A stretch of 45,821 nt of DNA. Source: Thiofilum flexile DSM 14609. GTDB taxonomy: Bacteria; Pseudomonadota; Gammaproteobacteria; Thiotrichales; Thiotrichaceae. The stretch is taken from the NCBI RefSeq assembly GCF_000380185.1, contig NZ_KB904763.1, forward strand, positions 1-45,821, in the 5' to 3' direction. Positions 4,745 through 41,961 of the stretch are shown here, one piece after another. The number at the start of each line of letters is the position of its first letter. Within the stretch, counting starts at the first letter, position 1. The translations under genes and the position numbers were made by a program. Below the pieces are notes generated by a model. The model was not told the DNA's origin. It did no database searches and saw only the letters and a list, made by a program, of their open reading frames with translations.

Positions 4745-4854
4745 GCAACCGTGTGTGGGTGTTTCTGGAGCAGTCTTGGCGGCAGGGATGCCGCCTTGTA
4801 GCGTACAAGGACGTATTCACAGCGACTGCGGAAGAAATACCCGCTCACGGTTGC
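4745..4854 (+). repeat. Palindromic structured repeat, copy 1
   Basis: The outer arms are 22 nt (4745-4766 and 4833-4854) and pair at 19 positions; two of the three remaining positions become G-U pairs if the plus strand is transcribed. The 66-nt core (4767-4832) contains GCAGTC/GACTGC and two hairpins, GGCGGCA-GGGA-TGCCGCC and CCTTGTA-GCG-TACAAGG. The core matches copy 2 (41856-41961, inverted) at 65 of 66 positions, while the outer arms are largely different. It lies between the DUF2889 gene and the first glucosidase promoter and has no T-run. Confidence 0.85.
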
Positions 4855-22563: not shown

Positions 22564-25500
22564 CTACTCAGTCACTGCTAATGGGGCGTCTTCTATCGGT
22601 AATAATCCCGTATAGCTACGCATTTTAGGATCAGCACCTGCTTTAAGAAGATGTTCAATTAAAGGTTTATTTTCTAAATGATAAGCTAAATGTAATACAG
22701 TTTTTCCTAATGAGTTGCGTAGATTAGGATTGGCTCTATAGCTTAATAGTAAATCTACTAAAGATAACGCATTAGGGCGACTGTTATAGTTATTTAGTAT
22801 GATTAGCAAAGGACTATTATCAATATTATCCTGAATATTAGGATTAGCTCCTTGTGCTAGTAGTAATTTAATCCAAGTGAGCGCACTTTTTTCTACAGCA
22901 TAATGCAGAGCCGTTTTACTATTCATATCGCGAGCATTAATAGCTAAACCTTGTTGTCTCAGGCGTATTATTATTTTTTGAATACGTAATGCATCTGCTG
23001 AATATTCTGATAATCCATTAGAAGCCTCAACTAATATATGCAATAAGCTTTGCCCCTTAAGATTGCTGATCTTAACATTTACCCCTTGATTAAGTAGATA
23101 CTCAACATAATCCAAAGGTTTTTCATAGCTACGAGCGGCAATGAATAATATATTTTCACCATTATTGTTAATATGGTTAAGATCAGCCCCAGCTTTAACA
23201 ATCTGAGTTAATACGGCTAGTTTAGTATTGGGATTAATATAGGAACTATTTAGAATATACATAGGTAAATTATATCCTGTATCATCTAAATCCGTACCTT
23301 TAACTACATTAGGGTCAGCACCTAATTGAATCAATTTAAGTAAGGCAGGTAAGTTAGCGTGACGTACCGCCGCTTGTAAGGCTGTTTCTCCGTAAATATT
23401 ACGATGATTGACATCGATACCTTGAGCAATTAACTGTTTAAATAATGAATCAAGCTCTTGTTCTTTTAAGTGAGCACGAGCGGCCTGAAATAAAACGGTT
23501 TCATCTTCATAGTTTAATTGCTTTAAATCAAAAGGCTTGGACATTAAAAATTTTGCAATAGGGTAATTAACTAATCCAATATAAAGAGCATTATTTCCTT
23601 TAGCACTTTGTGCCTGTAGATTAGCCCCCGCCTTGATGAGCAGCTCTAAACGTGCAATGTGCGCTTGAAGCTGAGCATTGCTAGGTTGATTGGAGTCATT
23701 AGCAAAGCGCTCGATGGTATGTAATAAAACACTGCGATCTTGAGCATCAATAGCATTTAAATCAGCTTTATAGTTCAATAGGCTATTAATAATGACTAAA
23801 TTTGGTTTTTCTACCGCCAGTAATAAAGGTGTTAAACTATCATTGTTGTAAATTTCAGTATTAGCACCGGCTTGAAGTAGTAATTCAATGATAGCAGGAT
23901 TTTGATTGAGGACAGCTAAATGTAAAGCGGTATTACCATTTTTATCTCGTTGATCGAGATTAAGTTTGACATCCTGCTCTTGAGCTATTTTTAGTAGTGA
24001 TTTAAGTGTTTTTTCATTAGGTAAATTAGCTGCTATTAATACTGTATTATTACCTGCTTGATTAACTAAATTAGGATCGGCTCCTGCTTGCAATAATACT
24101 TTGATAGTATTCTGCGCTTGTGAGTAAATAGCCCACTGTAAAGGCGTTTCTCTTTTGCTATTAGTCATATCTGCTATTGATAGGTTATCTAATAGGGTAA
24201 GGGTAATGCGCTCTTGATTAGCAGCGGCAGCTACATGTAATAGGGTATTATTATCATTAAAAGAGCGATAAGAGTAAGGCATGCTAACCGATTTTGATGC
24301 ATTAATGGCAATATTACGCTTATCTTTAAGCAGGTTATACCAATAATTATCTTGAGGTTGCAGGTTTTTAATGGCATTAGGTATTTTAAAGTTAGGATGC
24401 TTTGTTAGGAGCGTTTGATTTAATCCATAGTCTTGTAATTGAGTAAGATAACTATTCAGGTTTTTACCCAGATTAGATGAAAACTTAAGATCAGCGCCAG
24501 CGGCTATGAGTTGTTCTGCTTGAGCAATATGTTGTTGGTCTAAAGCAAGCTGTAGCCCACTGTAACCTAGTTTATTGCGGCTATTAAAATCTGCTTTTAA
24601 AGCTAGTAAATTAGCTAAAGTATTTTGATGATTGGCATAGATCGCTAATAATAAGGGTGTTTCAGCATCATTGTTTTTTACATTAATATCAGCCCCTAGT
24701 TGTATCAGTGTTTGCATTAGTTTCTGCTGGTCTTGACACCCCTCCTCACTACACTCTTGACGAGCTAGGTAATGCAGTAATGTATCTCCATTATTATCCT
24801 TAGCATTCACATCTTTATATTGAGTTAGCAGTTTTTGGACTGAAGTGAAGTATTTATTTAAGATAAGTAAGTGTAAAATGTTTTGTCCAGCTAGGTTTTT
24901 GGCTTCTATATTGAAAGGTTGAGTTAATAGCCATTCAACAATAAGCCATTGATGTTGCTCGATAGCTAATAAAAGGGGCGTATTACCATGACTATCAATA
25001 AAGTTGAGATCAGCCCCACTTTTAATCAATAGCTTTACTAATTGCAGTTTCTGCTCATTATTAATTTTTTCATGAGCAATAACTAAGTGCATGATTGAAC
25101 TATTAGCTGTATTAAGTGTAGCTAGCTTTGGTTCTAATACTAATAATTGCTCTATAAGATAAGTAATCTGTGAGGTGGTTTTTTCTGGAATGGAGTTAGT
25201 AGAGAGTAATTGTTGTAAAATAGAGAGTTGCTTATCATTTAAAGCGAGTAAATCAATATTTTGCTCTTTAAGCCATTTTAACCCCTGTAACCATTCATTA
25301 CTCGTGAGAGGTTTATCATCAGAATTCATCGTAGAGGTCTCTAAGGTATTTAGCCACAGATGAGCTAAATTATTACCGCTAGAGTCTTGATAATCGGTTT
25401 TAGCCCCAACTTTCTTAAAGTCACTGATAGTAGATTTTAATGTATTTAAATCCTGTAAATCATCTGCAGTTACTGCAAGACCATATTCAGACCACTGTTG

Positions 25501-28500
25501 CTTCATGCTGGGCATCTTAATTAGAGCTTGCCGAATAGCAGGAATAGTTAGGCATTCTAGTCGTATATCTGCAGGCTGTTTGTTTTTTTCTGCTTGTTGC
25601 TGTTGTTGTTTAACCCATTCTGTTAACCATGGCTCATTATGATTAGTATGTTTGATTTGACTAAGGATAATATTAGGATAATCATTGCAAAGTGATTTAT
25701 TCTTTAGGAAAGCAATCAAAGGATTGCTATTTATAGAGTTATCTTTGAATAACCCTAAGATAAAATTATGTTTTTCAGTAAGCCATTTATTTTCTACGAA
25801 ATAGTTAGCATTATATAAGCCAGAAAATAGTGCGGGAGTCACCTTAAATTGTGGTTGACGGCTAAGCCATCTTAGGGATTCAATACTATTTTCTGGCTGC
25901 TCATCAATTTGCTCCAGTATCTCATAAAATAAAGCTGCTAATTCAGCGGTTTTAAAAGAGTAATGATTGTCTACTAAGTGTTGGAGCAGAGGTAAGTTTC
26001 TGGCTTGTTTGGTTAGCAAATAGAAGGGGGAGCCATTAGGTGTGCTGGGTAATTCGGTAAAATCAAAGTGAGGCGTTTTAGAGCGTAAAAAATCCACTAA
26101 GCTAAAATCATCACTATTAAGATTATAAGAGTTTATGATTACATAGCGCAGTATCTGTTCATAGTCTTTAGCTTTCCAGTTTTGAGGCCAGACTTTTAAA
26201 ATAGTTTCAACAAAAGCCAAACGATTGTTAATAATCGGGTTTTCTAGCTGATCAGTCGAAATTACTAGATTCGGTATTAGTTTTGCTAGTTTAGTAATGA
26301 AATCAATTTCATTGATATTAGATGTTAACGCATAATTACTAGGGTTTTGTAAAGTATCTAAGACTTGATTTTTTTGTGCTGAGGTTAAAGTGATCTTGTT
26401 ATTAATCAGGTAGGTAATAATATCAATATTGTAATTCGATATAGCCTTTAAGAGTAAACTCTCATTATTACTAGCAGCCAGCGCTAGACCTTGCTGATGT
26501 AGCCAAAGCAGCGAATTAAAAGCATTAGAGTCAACTGCAGTACTAATAAGATTAGGATAGTCTTTGAAGTTGATCCCTTGGGCTTGATAAAGCTTGAGTT
26601 GTTCTAAGGCATCAGTACGTAATAGGGTATTGAGTATGGGTTCAATATTCAGTGTATCTAGCTTAATGAGTGATAATAGCTTTTTATTGATAGTTAAGGT
26701 TTTATCTCCTTTTTCTGCAATACTGTTTAATAGTTCTTGTGTAAGGCTTGGATTATTATTGAAATCTAATTGATAACTAGGCTGATTAACTAAATACTCT
26801 ATAGATTTTAGTTTATTTTGCTCAAGCAAGGTTTTGAGTAAGCTATCGTCATTAGGTTCTGATTGAAAGCTAAGACCTGCATCTAGAAATAGTGGAATAG
26901 TATCATAATATTCTTGTGCTAGCGCCCAGCTCATAACATTACTATAGTCTTCAATAATACTATTAGGATTAAAGCCTTGCTCTAATAGCCAAGTAACTAA
27001 TTGTTTTTGATTAAGATACTTTAAGCTAAACTCCCAAATATAAGCAGGATTAATATTGGGGTCTGATAAAATAGCGGGTAATAATGCTTGAATAGTCGCT
27101 AATTCTTGTTTAGGTAGTTTGGCGGTAATACGTAAACGAGTATTGGCATCATCGAGCACCTGTTGAGCATTAGCTTTTAATAAGCTATTTAGGGTGTCTG
27201 AGTTAATGGGGTAATCAAGGGCTATTTCTAAACTACTGCGCCCTGCAGCATCAACAATAGTAGGATCTGCTTTAGCTTGGAATAATAATGTTAAGATTTT
27301 AGCAATATCATTAGGATAATGCGGAGCTACCTGTAGTGCTATATGCAGTGCGGTTTCACCATAATCATTTTTAAGATTAGGATCAGCACCTTCATTTAGT
27401 AAACGGGTTATTTGTGTAATATTAGCTTGACGTACTGCGCGATGTAAGGGCGTGTTATGCCATTTATCGGTTTCAGTAAAGGTATCCGTTTTATCTGGGT
27501 AGTGAGCAAAACGTGTCTTTAAGCGCGTTTGTGAGCTAGGTAGCAAATCAATGGCTAATTGATCACCCCAGGTTTTTATATTTTTGGCAGCACCTAATTC
27601 TAATAAAGGGGTTATTAAAAACTCATCCCCTAGCTGAGCAGTATAATGTAGTGGAGTCCAATCCCCTTTGCTGCGATTATGAATATCCGTGCCGATATTT
27701 AATAATTTATAGGCAATAGGTTTGGCTCCTAAGGCTAGGGCAGTTTGTAGTGGTGTACGTTGATCATTATCTTTAGTATTAATATTAGCGTCTGCACGTA
27801 ATAAAATATTAATTAAATCTAAATCACGCAGCTCAATACTTTGGTGTAAAGGTGTTTTTCCGTAGTAATTGACGGCATTAATATTAGCACCCGCTTTAAT
27901 CAGTAAATCAACTTGGGATAGTGAGCGCCCGCGTATCGCTAAATGTAATGGGCTATTGCCCTCTTGATCAGCTAAATTAGGATCAGCTTTGTATTTTAAT
28001 AATAAAGCAGTAATTTCGGGGGAATTATAACGAATAGAGCGTTGTAATGCCGTTTGTCCCAAATCATCTTGCTCATTAGGGTTAGCACCTGCTTTTAGTG
28101 CTTCTTCAATCATGGGGAAAACGGTGTTTTTATCGGTGCGACTACTTAAGTGAGAGATTAATGATACCCCTTGCTCGGTATTATCGGTGAGTTTTGCCCC
28201 TGCCTGTACGAGATGTTCAATAGTGGCCTTATCTTTTGCCATGAAAATAACGGGGCTGCCCTCATTATTCAGCGCTTGAAGATCAACACCTTTAGCCAGC
28301 AATTGATCAATCACTAAGGTTAGCCCTTCTTGGGCAGCATAATGTAAGGGAGTATTGCCATTTTGATCGAGTGCTTCTGGGTTAGCGCCATGGGCTAGTA
28401 ATTGCAAAGCATTACGAGTTTTATTCGTTAAAATGGCAATATGCAAAGGCGTTTGCCCTTCTTTATTCGCGGCATCAATCCGTGCTTTTGCTGCTAGGAG

Positions 28501-30114
28501 TTGCTCTAGCGGGGATAAAGCTGGGCTAGATCCTTTAACCTCATATTGAGCGGCTCTATGTAAGAGCGTATTACCATTATAATCAGGGCGATTAATATCA
28601 GCGCCGTTTTGTAGGTAAAGTTTTAAATCAGTAATAGAATCAGGTTCGCGTTCAATAAGTTTATATAGCGCCGATTTCCCTTCATTATCAACCATAGCTG
28701 CATCGGCATTTGCTTGTAATAAATACTGTGCTAGTAAGGGGTAGCCCTGTTCAGTAGCTAATATGAGTGGGGTTTTATTGGCTTGATTTTGAATATTTAA
28801 TTCGGGTTTTTCAGCCATTAAAGCCAAAGCAATAGCAGCGGCATCATTATAATAATTATTATCCAGTGCTAAATGTAAGGGAGTATTACCCTCATTATTG
28901 GTAATCGCTTGATTGGCTTGCTGAGAGAGTAGGTATTTAACACTAGCCAATTGCCCTGTGCTAACCGCAATATGTAATGGAGTAGCGCCTTGTTTATTTC
29001 GCGTATTGATATGTTTAGGCGAAAGTGTGAGTAATAAGGCTAATTGTTGGCCTTTGACAGCGCTATGCAAGAGGGTATCACCCGTGCAAGGGTCATCCCA
29101 TTGGGCTAAGGAGTCGGCTTGATTGCCTAATATGCGCTTTAATAAGGGTAAATTACCCGTTTCGGCTGCTATACCCGCCAGCGTGGAGCAACTCGTATCG
29201 GTGCTACGCTGTTCAACGGGGGGGAGGGGGGGAATATTTTTGGCAATTAAATAATCCAAAATCGGGATTTGATTGGCTCTTGCTGCCCGCTGCGGTAAGG
29301 TTTCTGGGGAGCGAAGGAGTGAATCCCCACGCTCATAGAAGTACTGCAAAACCTCTAAATGACCTTGATCTATCGCCTCCTCGGCATAAGCTAAGGGCAC
29401 ACCGCGATCCGCTAAATATTTTACAATAGGGATACTGCCCGAACGCACAGCAACCTGCATCCACTCAGGATGTTGGGCTGGCTCGGCTTGTAGCTTGGCT
29501 TGTTGTATGATCCATTTCACCACCGAGAGCTGAGCACTTTTAATGGCATGCTCAATGAGGTCAGGGCAATCATTGCGTAGCGGCAGCAGGCGTTCAGTAA
29601 CCGCTAAATGTCCATTTTCTAAGGCTTGATAAATTTCGCAGCGCGTGGCTTCTGAGTGAGGCGGTAACAGATGATCCGGTCTATGGTCGGCAAACGCCAT
29701 GAGTTGATCGAGGAGCTTTAAATCCCCGCGACGAGCCGCATAAAAAATAGCACGCTGCGCAGTATTAAAGGTTTCACGCCGTAAATAGGGCAGCATTGCA
29801 TAAGCATTAGCCATTTGATCGCTAGCCAACGCAATGGTGAGGGCGCTGTGCTGATCATTATCACCACTAATGCCCGGATCGGCACCGTGGTCGAATAGGG
29901 TTTGCAACTCAGGTGTGGGGGGATGTAGTGCCGCTGCTTGTAGCTTATCGCGTAATAAGGTCTTAGCCTCAATCCCCACAGGATGGTCTACCGTTTTCGA
30001 TTGAATCTCAGCCGCTTCACTAAAGTGGCGATAAATAAAATAGCCCCCGCCTAGGCACAGGATAAACGCTAACAGTAATACGGGTAGCCTCATGTTTTTG
30101 GTACTGAGATGCAT
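22564..30114 (-). CDS. Giant membrane-anchored ankyrin-repeat protein (2516 aa)
   Basis: The single uninterrupted 7.5-kb frame starts with MHLSTKNMRLPVLLLAFILC, a signal-anchor helix, so the rest is probably periplasmic or surface-facing. Ankyrin repeats (G.TPLH.A...G....V..LL..GA..N) fill residues ~55-970 and ~1690-2510, at least 25 recognisable units in all, for example GNTPLHYAAQEGLTLVIDQL and NGNTALHLAVLNQNPAIIELL. The middle ~700 residues are helical with leucine-rich pairs (WLLEQGFNPNS, LLWLHQQGLALA) but poor ankyrin consensus, possibly decayed repeats. No catalytic domain is recognised. Ankyrin arrays bind proteins; such giants are frequent in host-associated bacteria but also occur in free-living ones. 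GGGGCG precedes ATG 30114. Partner and role unknown. Confidence 0.9.
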   Translation of the reverse strand: MHLSTKNMRLPVLLLAFILCLGGGYFIYRHFSEAAEIQSKTVDHPVGIEAKTLLRDKLQAAALHPPTPELQTLFDHGADPGISGDNDQHSALTIALASDQMANAYAMLPYLRRETFNTAQRAIFYAARRGDLKLLDQLMAFADHRPDHLLPPHSEATRCEIYQALENGHLAVTERLLPLRNDCPDLIEHAIKSAQLSVVKWIIQQAKLQAEPAQHPEWMQVAVRSGSIPIVKYLADRGVPLAYAEEAIDQGHLEVLQYFYERGDSLLRSPETLPQRAARANQIPILDYLIAKNIPPLPPVEQRSTDTSCSTLAGIAAETGNLPLLKRILGNQADSLAQWDDPCTGDTLLHSAVKGQQLALLLTLSPKHINTRNKQGATPLHIAVSTGQLASVKYLLSQQANQAITNNEGNTPLHLALDNNYYNDAAAIALALMAEKPELNIQNQANKTPLILATEQGYPLLAQYLLQANADAAMVDNEGKSALYKLIEREPDSITDLKLYLQNGADINRPDYNGNTLLHRAAQYEVKGSSPALSPLEQLLAAKARIDAANKEGQTPLHIAILTNKTRNALQLLAHGANPEALDQNGNTPLHYAAQEGLTLVIDQLLAKGVDLQALNNEGSPVIFMAKDKATIEHLVQAGAKLTDNTEQGVSLISHLSSRTDKNTVFPMIEEALKAGANPNEQDDLGQTALQRSIRYNSPEITALLLKYKADPNLADQEGNSPLHLAIRGRSLSQVDLLIKAGANINAVNYYGKTPLHQSIELRDLDLINILLRADANINTKDNDQRTPLQTALALGAKPIAYKLLNIGTDIHNRSKGDWTPLHYTAQLGDEFLITPLLELGAAKNIKTWGDQLAIDLLPSSQTRLKTRFAHYPDKTDTFTETDKWHNTPLHRAVRQANITQITRLLNEGADPNLKNDYGETALHIALQVAPHYPNDIAKILTLLFQAKADPTIVDAAGRSSLEIALDYPINSDTLNSLLKANAQQVLDDANTRLRITAKLPKQELATIQALLPAILSDPNINPAYIWEFSLKYLNQKQLVTWLLEQGFNPNSIIEDYSNVMSWALAQEYYDTIPLFLDAGLSFQSEPNDDSLLKTLLEQNKLKSIEYLVNQPSYQLDFNNNPSLTQELLNSIAEKGDKTLTINKKLLSLIKLDTLNIEPILNTLLRTDALEQLKLYQAQGINFKDYPNLISTAVDSNAFNSLLWLHQQGLALAASNNESLLLKAISNYNIDIITYLINNKITLTSAQKNQVLDTLQNPSNYALTSNINEIDFITKLAKLIPNLVISTDQLENPIINNRLAFVETILKVWPQNWKAKDYEQILRYVIINSYNLNSDDFSLVDFLRSKTPHFDFTELPSTPNGSPFYLLTKQARNLPLLQHLVDNHYSFKTAELAALFYEILEQIDEQPENSIESLRWLSRQPQFKVTPALFSGLYNANYFVENKWLTEKHNFILGLFKDNSINSNPLIAFLKNKSLCNDYPNIILSQIKHTNHNEPWLTEWVKQQQQQAEKNKQPADIRLECLTIPAIRQALIKMPSMKQQWSEYGLAVTADDLQDLNTLKSTISDFKKVGAKTDYQDSSGNNLAHLWLNTLETSTMNSDDKPLTSNEWLQGLKWLKEQNIDLLALNDKQLSILQQLLSTNSIPEKTTSQITYLIEQLLVLEPKLATLNTANSSIMHLVIAHEKINNEQKLQLVKLLIKSGADLNFIDSHGNTPLLLAIEQHQWLIVEWLLTQPFNIEAKNLAGQNILHLLILNKYFTSVQKLLTQYKDVNAKDNNGDTLLHYLARQECSEEGCQDQQKLMQTLIQLGADINVKNNDAETPLLLAIYANHQNTLANLLALKADFNSRNKLGYSGLQLALDQQHIAQAEQLIAAGADLKFSSNLGKNLNSYLTQLQDYGLNQTLLTKHPNFKIPNAIKNLQPQDNYWYNLLKDKRNIAINASKSVSMPYSYRSFNDNNTLLHVAAAANQERITLTLLDNLSIADMTNSKRETPLQWAIYSQAQNTIKVLLQAGADPNLVNQAGNNTVLIAANLPNEKTLKSLLKIAQEQDVKLNLDQRDKNGNTALHLAVLNQNPAIIELLLQAGANTEIYNNDSLTPLLLAVEKPNLVIINSLLNYKADLNAIDAQDRSVLLHTIERFANDSNQPSNAQLQAHIARLELLIKAGANLQAQSAKGNNALYIGLVNYPIAKFLMSKPFDLKQLNYEDETVLFQAARAHLKEQELDSLFKQLIAQGIDVNHRNIYGETALQAAVRHANLPALLKLIQLGADPNVVKGTDLDDTGYNLPMYILNSSYINPNTKLAVLTQIVKAGADLNHINNNGENILFIAARSYEKPLDYVEYLLNQGVNVKISNLKGQSLLHILVEASNGLSEYSADALRIQKIIIRLRQQGLAINARDMNSKTALHYAVEKSALTWIKLLLAQGANPNIQDNIDNSPLLIILNNYNSRPNALSLVDLLLSYRANPNLRNSLGKTVLHLAYHLENKPLIEHLLKAGADPKMRSYTGLLPIEDAPLAVTE

Positions 30115-41855: not shown

Positions 41856-41961
41856 AACGTTAAGCGCGTATTTCTTCCGCAGTCGCTGTGAATACATCCT
41901 TGTACGCTACAAGGCGGCATCCCTGCCGCCAAGACTGCTCCAGAAATACGCGCTTAACGTT
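41856..41961 (-). repeat. Palindromic structured repeat, copy 2
   Basis: The 20-nt arms (41856-41875 and 41942-41961) are perfectly complementary. The 66-nt core (41876-41941) is the inverse of the copy-1 core (4767-4832) with one base different. The arms share only the innermost ~5-7 nt with copy 1 (TTTCT/AGAAA), yet each copy keeps a full stem. The two inner hairpins are identical to copy 1. It lies between cls and the aminotransferase gene, divergently transcribed. Confidence 0.87.

Follow-up and report, generated by a model that had tools for sequence, protein, structure and literature searches.

Two structured elements in the window (a 45,821-nt stretch of contig NZ_KB904763.1 of Thiofilum flexile DSM 14609) are best regarded as members of one large family of non-autonomous, MITE-like mobile palindromes related to the YPAL repeats of Yersinia. 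Small mobile palindromes of this family are present in many Gammaproteobacteria. In the explanation that we consider probable as a whole, the plus strand of the element would be transcribed and both of its hairpin loops would bind CsrA/RsmA, such that each copy may act as a dispersed binding site or decoy, whilst the arms of the palindrome would be kept complementary largely through template switching, with one arm re-copied from the other.

The original prediction of two structured copies with a near-identical core was borne out, with both copies lying at the predicted positions and each folding far beyond shuffled sequences (z-scores of -6.8 and -10.2; 0 of 200 shuffles equalled either copy). 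Their cores differ by a single substitution (GGACG/GGATG), with a further TG/TA difference at the stem's inner end, and the window contains the 18-nt hairpin 1 at two places, compared with an expectation of 0.02 when up to three mismatches are allowed. The arms had been described as differing almost completely; this description did not hold, as 9 of the 16 bases directly 5' of an 80-nt core are equal in register between copies 1 and 2, and across 74 copies the arms resemble drifted forms of one arm. The pairing CCTTGTA/TACAAGG suggested for hairpin 2 can form here, but CCTTGTA precedes hairpin 2 in none of 79 copies from other genomes, and the conserved hairpin is instead the shifted form GTACA-NGGA-NGTAT. 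Elsewhere, the window contains an open reading frame of 2516 residues (22564-30114, minus strand).

Table 1. Positions of the two palindromic elements and their parts within the window.
Feature	Position	Strand	Basis
Copy 1, whole element (variable-arm class)	4745-4854	+	core match and fold
Copy 1 outer stem, 5' arm (copy-specific outer part, then TGTTTCT)	4745-4766	+	fold, alignment, covariation
Copy 1 outer stem, 3' arm	4833-4854	+	fold, alignment, covariation
Copy 1 inner stem GCAGTC, 5' side (partner 4824-4829)	4770-4775	+	fold, covariation
Copy 1 inner stem GACTGC, 3' side	4824-4829	+	fold, covariation
Copy 1 hairpin 1, loop CAGGGATG (CANGGANG)	4778-4795	+	sequence, copy alignment
Copy 1 hairpin 2 GTACAAGGACGTAT (ACANGGANGT, CsrA/Rsm-type loop), followed by conserved TTCAC	4803-4816	+	
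Copy 2, whole element	41856-41961	-	core match and fold
Copy 2 outer stem, 5' arm	41942-41961	-	fold, alignment
Copy 2 outer stem, 3' arm (paired 20/20)	41856-41875	-	fold, alignment
Copy 2 hairpin 1	41913-41930	-	sequence
Copy 2 hairpin 2 GTACAAGGATGTAT	41892-41905	-	sequence, copy alignment

A 37-nt core pattern, allowing up to three mismatches, identified at least 81 core places in the 3.79-Mb genome to which the window belongs (G000; other G numbers denote sampled genomes and L numbers denote loci), with 34 in forward and 47 in reverse orientation and none in the control. Among named records, those closest to one protein flanking the element are headed by Thiothrix at 75-77% identity, with Marinobacterium and others at around 71%, which by this one protein makes a Thiotrichales-like gammaproteobacterium likely. 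Copies with variable, paired arms are numerous, as originally predicted. One class of G000 copies has long conserved ends, TAAGTAGGTATACCAAAGTAATCGGG and CTCGATTACTTTGGCTCAAGTACTTA, between which the core can be found in either orientation. Other copies, both of those in the window among them, retain the stem's inner portion alone, the remainder being copy-specific. The longer G000 copies end in TAAGTA...TACTTA, and a search of this genome with one exact pattern retrieved no core-less palindromes of the conserved-arm class.

The distribution of the element was surveyed with GAGCSTACANGGANGTATTCACRGCG, representing the most conserved 26 nt of the core, at up to two mismatches. Of the 369 gammaproteobacterial genomes sampled, 50 gave matches, the reversed-pattern control being 0 among the matches listed, and copy numbers were greatest in G283 (483), G273 (95), G117 (64), G342 (53) and G376 (49). 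In a sample of 398 genomes from across the Pseudomonadota, all 21 positive genomes were among the 137 Gammaproteobacteria, with no match in the 261 genomes of other classes. Most copies in other genera had two hairpins within long arms, and hairpin 2 covaries between genera (TAC/GTA versus TCC/GGA; GCC/GGC versus GGC/GCC). Carriage on plasmids or phages was not detected using 51-nt queries at an E-value of 0.01, a search that diverged cores would escape, and a single IMG/VR contig of the viral collection matched an exact pattern (L217:230-255). By eye, the core of this viral match lies within a short hairpin and hairpin 1 is missing. A candidate replication-strand bias was dropped, as plus and minus copies were intermingled along three genomes in exact-pattern subsets. 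In contig 1 of G590 (94445-95380), the core recurs five times at intervals of 227-229 bp, an apparent tandem array of the element.

Contrary to the original view that no named family has this design, the same core is held by the Yersinia YPAL/RU-2 repeat. The 168-nt RU-2 sequence of Y. pestis, as printed in the retrieved text of PMC2759123, matches the 26-nt pattern with 0 mismatches when C/T is allowed once, and in it the loops CAAGGATG and CATGGATG lie inside a long stem, as in the element here. YPAL measures approximately 168 bp; the present element extends from 106 to approximately 132 bp in G000 and reaches approximately 159 bp at one G283 site. The two differ in several respects. According to excerpts of PMC2229807, YPAL generates target duplications of 3-26 bp, has ends lacking TA and is hosted by Yersinia and Erwinia carotovora, whilst two sites of the present element fit a TA target and its hosts belong to many more families. 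A table in the available part of PMC2847712 lists three YPAL copies in E. coli; E. coli records gave no match at an E-value of 0.1 with our queries, which were short and which diverged cores would escape. In the retrieved portions of the literature on YPAL repeats, CsrA was not mentioned. The element is thus of a partly known kind, and what appears to be new, as far as searched, is the breadth of the family, its possible connection with CsrA and the putative rewriting of its arms.

Other known systems bear a more limited resemblance to the element. No Rfam model matched at its gathering score. The Yersinia sRNA 224 model (Ysr224, RF02770) matched weakly over a 301-base stretch covering the L168 element (21.8 bits, E-value 0.0084), well short of the gathering score (70), and its consensus corresponds to the antisense strand of the core, placing the GGA loops on the opposite strand. 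ERIC, NEMIS and REP/BIME repeats are similarly short, non-coding, palindromic and intergenic, yet we know of no bacterial MITE or REP family that combines copy-specific arms with paired CsrA-type loops. The sponge RNAs CsrB, RsmZ and RsmY are encoded by genes that each have a promoter and a terminator, unlike the element, which is a dispersed mobile repeat. They are alike in that several GGA-loop hairpins occur per RNA. The TwoAYGGAY RNA motif, listed in a table in the retrieved part of PMC2864571, is alike to judge from its name, which implies two GGA loops per structure, and no Rfam model of it matched the element.

Two readable empty sites, designated A and D, were both found for insertions in G283, the empty alleles being those of G404 and G405 (site A) and G406 (site D). 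At each site the filled allele consists of TA, the whole element including its arms, and TA, whilst the empty allele holds TA; the insertion target at these sites is therefore apparently TA, as read from the aligned alleles. A comparison at one site in the same-genus pair G185/G391 was met by broken synteny. The original prediction had offered insertion of the core into pre-existing hairpins, which would provide the arms, as one explanation for their variability. Arms do vary between copies, and YPAL targets are described in the available text of a review (PMC2229807) as spanning or adjoining regions of dyad symmetry, which would accord with such a process. However, in the empty alleles of sites A and D the inverted repeats close to the junction are no longer than 3-4 bp, the same as at random sites, and the arms are present in the filled allele only, hence they are part of the mobile unit at these sites. 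Within a genome, the arms of different copies also appear homologous, and those of G283 are largely constant inside subfamilies. Contradicted at two sites of one genome, insertion into existing hairpins is regarded as highly improbable. The mobile palindrome that we favour instead is short and interspersed, as expected of a MITE, and at sites A and D of the one genome it also has terminal inverted repeats and a target duplication. As a separate observation, the TTCAC stretch of the core contains another small palindrome (CCAGCACCTAAATT...GGTGCTGGG), whole or as a remnant, at several sites in L347, L348 and L350 (G403, G404 and G406), in positions that correspond to sites A, B, C and D of G283, with TTCAC apparently duplicated.

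Pairing within the element was assessed in 73 gapless copies from G000, one copy with a replaced 3' half (L039:1398) being excluded. The proposed structure was paired in 95.9% of cells, and two-sided changes were observed at 23 pairs and in 190 cells, compared with 41.9 cells after shuffling (0 of 500 shuffles were as high) and 12-45 cells in controls with a slid partner. This covariation was mostly confined to the outer stem, in which 20 of 21 pairs had two-sided changes. Pairing was weaker when arms were exchanged between copies, arm position 4 being Watson-Crick paired in 97% with its own partner and in 61% with a swapped arm. Mismatches in the arms were skewed when read on the plus strand of the element, with a G.T:A.C ratio in G000 of 35:6 after subtraction of three inherited positions (80:7 with them included). 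The corresponding ratio was 75:23 in 67 distinct copies of other genomes (two-sided binomial p of 1e-7, copies of the same genome being non-independent), this being the duplicate-free union of two overlapping sets (39:10 and 41:14) from which stems shorter than 10 bp were excluded (12 of 79 copies). Neutral decay of a DNA palindrome would give equal G.T and A.C, and the plus strand therefore probably folds as a single strand, either RNA or DNA; the strand asymmetry fits folded single-stranded DNA equally well as RNA.

These results bear on the suggestion, also made originally, that the outer stem is under selection as a folded RNA, each copy being an ordinary structured 3' UTR or sRNA whose arms covary by stepwise compensatory mutation. 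The suggestion is partly supported, by covariation far above both controls, by the G.T over A.C bias and by the frequency with which changes are one-sided in G000, G117 and G185. It accords poorly with the stems of G273, for which 30 loci were fetched and 14 were read (those with the element on the plus strand of the locus); three of these lacked a long simple stem, and in the other 11 stems of 32-49 bp were Watson-Crick at 400 of 403 pairs. About one quarter of aligned positions differ between nearest copies in G273, with two one-sided and 69 two-sided differences when gaps are allowed. On the same basis, 2 one-sided and 11 two-sided differences separated nearest copies in G100, where L281 and L282 are distinguished by one base added in both arms. 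In addition, in 4 of 73 G000 copies sequence complementary to the opposite arm had taken the place of an internal loop (GGAG/CGGAAG), one way in L065 and the other way in L034, L049 and L075; the replacements are exact in L034 and L065, whilst that of L049 has one mismatch within it and that of L075 an adjoining G.T. Taken with the lack of sense bias described below, these features render ordinary RNA selection quite unlikely as the sole explanation.

We consider it rather probable that the arms have been rewritten, one being re-copied from the other, given that stepwise selection poorly explains 400 of 403 pairs in diverged stems. Copying of one palindrome arm from the other is known as quasipalindrome correction, and template switching at the element might take this form or be a fold-back copying step of transposition. 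Arm copying would account for the near-perfect diverged stems of G273, the loop replacements, the paired indel and the flipped core. One-sided changes are nonetheless frequent in the less strict genomes G117 (28 versus 27 two-sided) and G185 (4 versus 2), both with gaps allowed, and in G000 (70 versus 103, in a gapless comparison of the kind that inflates two-sided counts after indels, giving 2/120 in G273, 2/24 in G100, 5/28 in G185 and 29/32 in G117), hence copying is not strong everywhere. Selection for plus-strand folding may add to copying, with a balance that would vary by genome. The arms would then constitute a natural record of palindrome rewriting, every copy allowing template-switch correction to be weighed against compensatory selection.

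The fold of the core, comprising the outer stem and two hairpins, presents two loops that both read CANGGANG, with variation mostly at the N positions. This sequence is the Rsm motif, as given in the retrieved part of PMC6849547, and excerpts of PMC7652899 report a CsrA SELEX consensus of RUACARGGAUGU, 51 of the 55 ligands having GGA within a hairpin loop; CsrB and RsmY carry multiple CsrA sites, generally in pairs (available text of PMC4383904). Loop statistics were compiled for the 74 G000 copies that had neither a length change nor a nested insert. Hairpin 2, the loop of which is ACANGGANGT in G000, has the A and each GGA base in all 74 copies, whereas the N before GGA is variable (G 36, A 34, T 3, C 1), as is that after it (T 43, G 17, C 13, A 1). 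In hairpin 1, each GGA base is kept in 72-73 of the 74, the first N being G in 39, A in 25 and T in 10, and the last T in 66, A in 5 and C in 3. Despite a variable stem, hairpin 1 has CANGGANG in 44 of 66 copies from other genomes and some GGA loop in nine more; the equivalent values for G273 are 21 and 5 of 32, and for G283 a hairpin finder detected a GGA loop in just 31 of 52 copies. Over 95 copies, GGA was present in 146 of 204 hairpin loops, of which up to 95 were given beforehand by the inclusion of hairpin 2 in the search pattern, compared with 87 of 870 background loops, and its complement was present in 4 of 204.

Among 11 irregular loci that were printed, five (L190, L276, L277, L278 and L291) had added GGA-loop hairpins, making three GGA loops per element; in L276 the third such loop is that of hairpin 2, which is absent from the computed fold. 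The A(N)GGA motif that characterizes CsrA sites is thus found in loops of the element, more than once per RNA, with exceptions in which GGA is broken. Based on these loops, we hold with some confidence that the element is likely a CsrA-binding module. Several points count against this, namely the broken GGA copies (L071, L073, L076 and L050:2360 in G000, and alteration of the first G of the hairpin 2 GGA in 4 of 52 G283 copies), the expanded versions L193 and L270 with added hairpins that do not contain GGA, and the absent sense bias. One csrA hit was obtained in G000, and csrA was not significantly associated with the element among sampled genomes (46 of 50 element genomes versus 267 of 319 others, p of 0.14); the element genomes without a hit were G043, G104, G230 and G376, three of which are less than 90% complete, with G230 at 98%. 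Within the available text of PMC4383904, CsrA and the words ‘miniature inverted’ are mentioned in separate contexts only.

The hairpins could alternatively act as folded single-stranded DNA, with a transposase recognizing the plus-strand core (GGA loops and TTCAC) and the resemblance to CsrA sites being coincidental. Transposases of REP/IS200-type systems recognize folded single-stranded DNA hairpins, and G.T is a well tolerated mismatch in DNA, so that the mismatch bias could be accommodated by DNA as well. Such a role would also suit the neutral orientation of copies relative to genes and the conservation that lies partly outside the CsrA site (GAGC and TTCACRGCG). Nevertheless, freedom to vary is mainly at both N positions of CANGGANG in both loops, and at the five loci with added hairpins different stems again present GGA loops, both of which are as CsrA binding predicts; the mixture of plus and minus copies along three genomes, in exact-pattern subsets, also weighs against single-stranded DNA. 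We therefore regard this alternative as rather unlikely. Were the loops to bind CsrA, the binding sites of a global regulator would be carried by a selfish repeat, and where copies number in the hundreds the genome would possess a large movable reservoir for CsrA beside the known sponge RNAs; a molecular role for the YPAL repeats would also be suggested. At its broadest, the family could form a superfamily extending from Yersinia YPAL to G000, a portable module that distributes paired CsrA sites along a chromosome, as many as several hundred of them, can grow by addition of GGA hairpins and recopies its arms; this composite view, built from sequence comparisons, is put forward tentatively as slightly less than an even prospect.

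The gene context of the element was examined in 83 G000 copies (E-value below 1e-10), selected from 99 hits that included chance hits and unrelated loci. Thirty were located in convergent gaps, 11 in divergent gaps and two in called ORFs, whilst four had no neighbour; those in tandem gaps were in sense orientation in 17 instances and antisense in 19, according to simple gene calls. There was thus no sense bias relative to genes in these 83 copies, and host cis-regulatory selection is not visible. In other genomes, simple ORF calling, on which we do not rely, placed 46 copies inside ORFs, and the remainder comprised 17 sense and 12 antisense copies. As orientation relative to genes looks random, the target of selection may be the mobile unit as such, more than any individual copy in its genomic setting. 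In seven G000 copies (L037:1455, L037:3061, L045:6658, L050:2360, L051:1533, L057:1471 and L073:1502), an insert was present at one identical point, GTATT^CACAGCG, and by eye this insert has a GGA loop on the opposite strand (GGCGC-AAGGAC-GCGCC).
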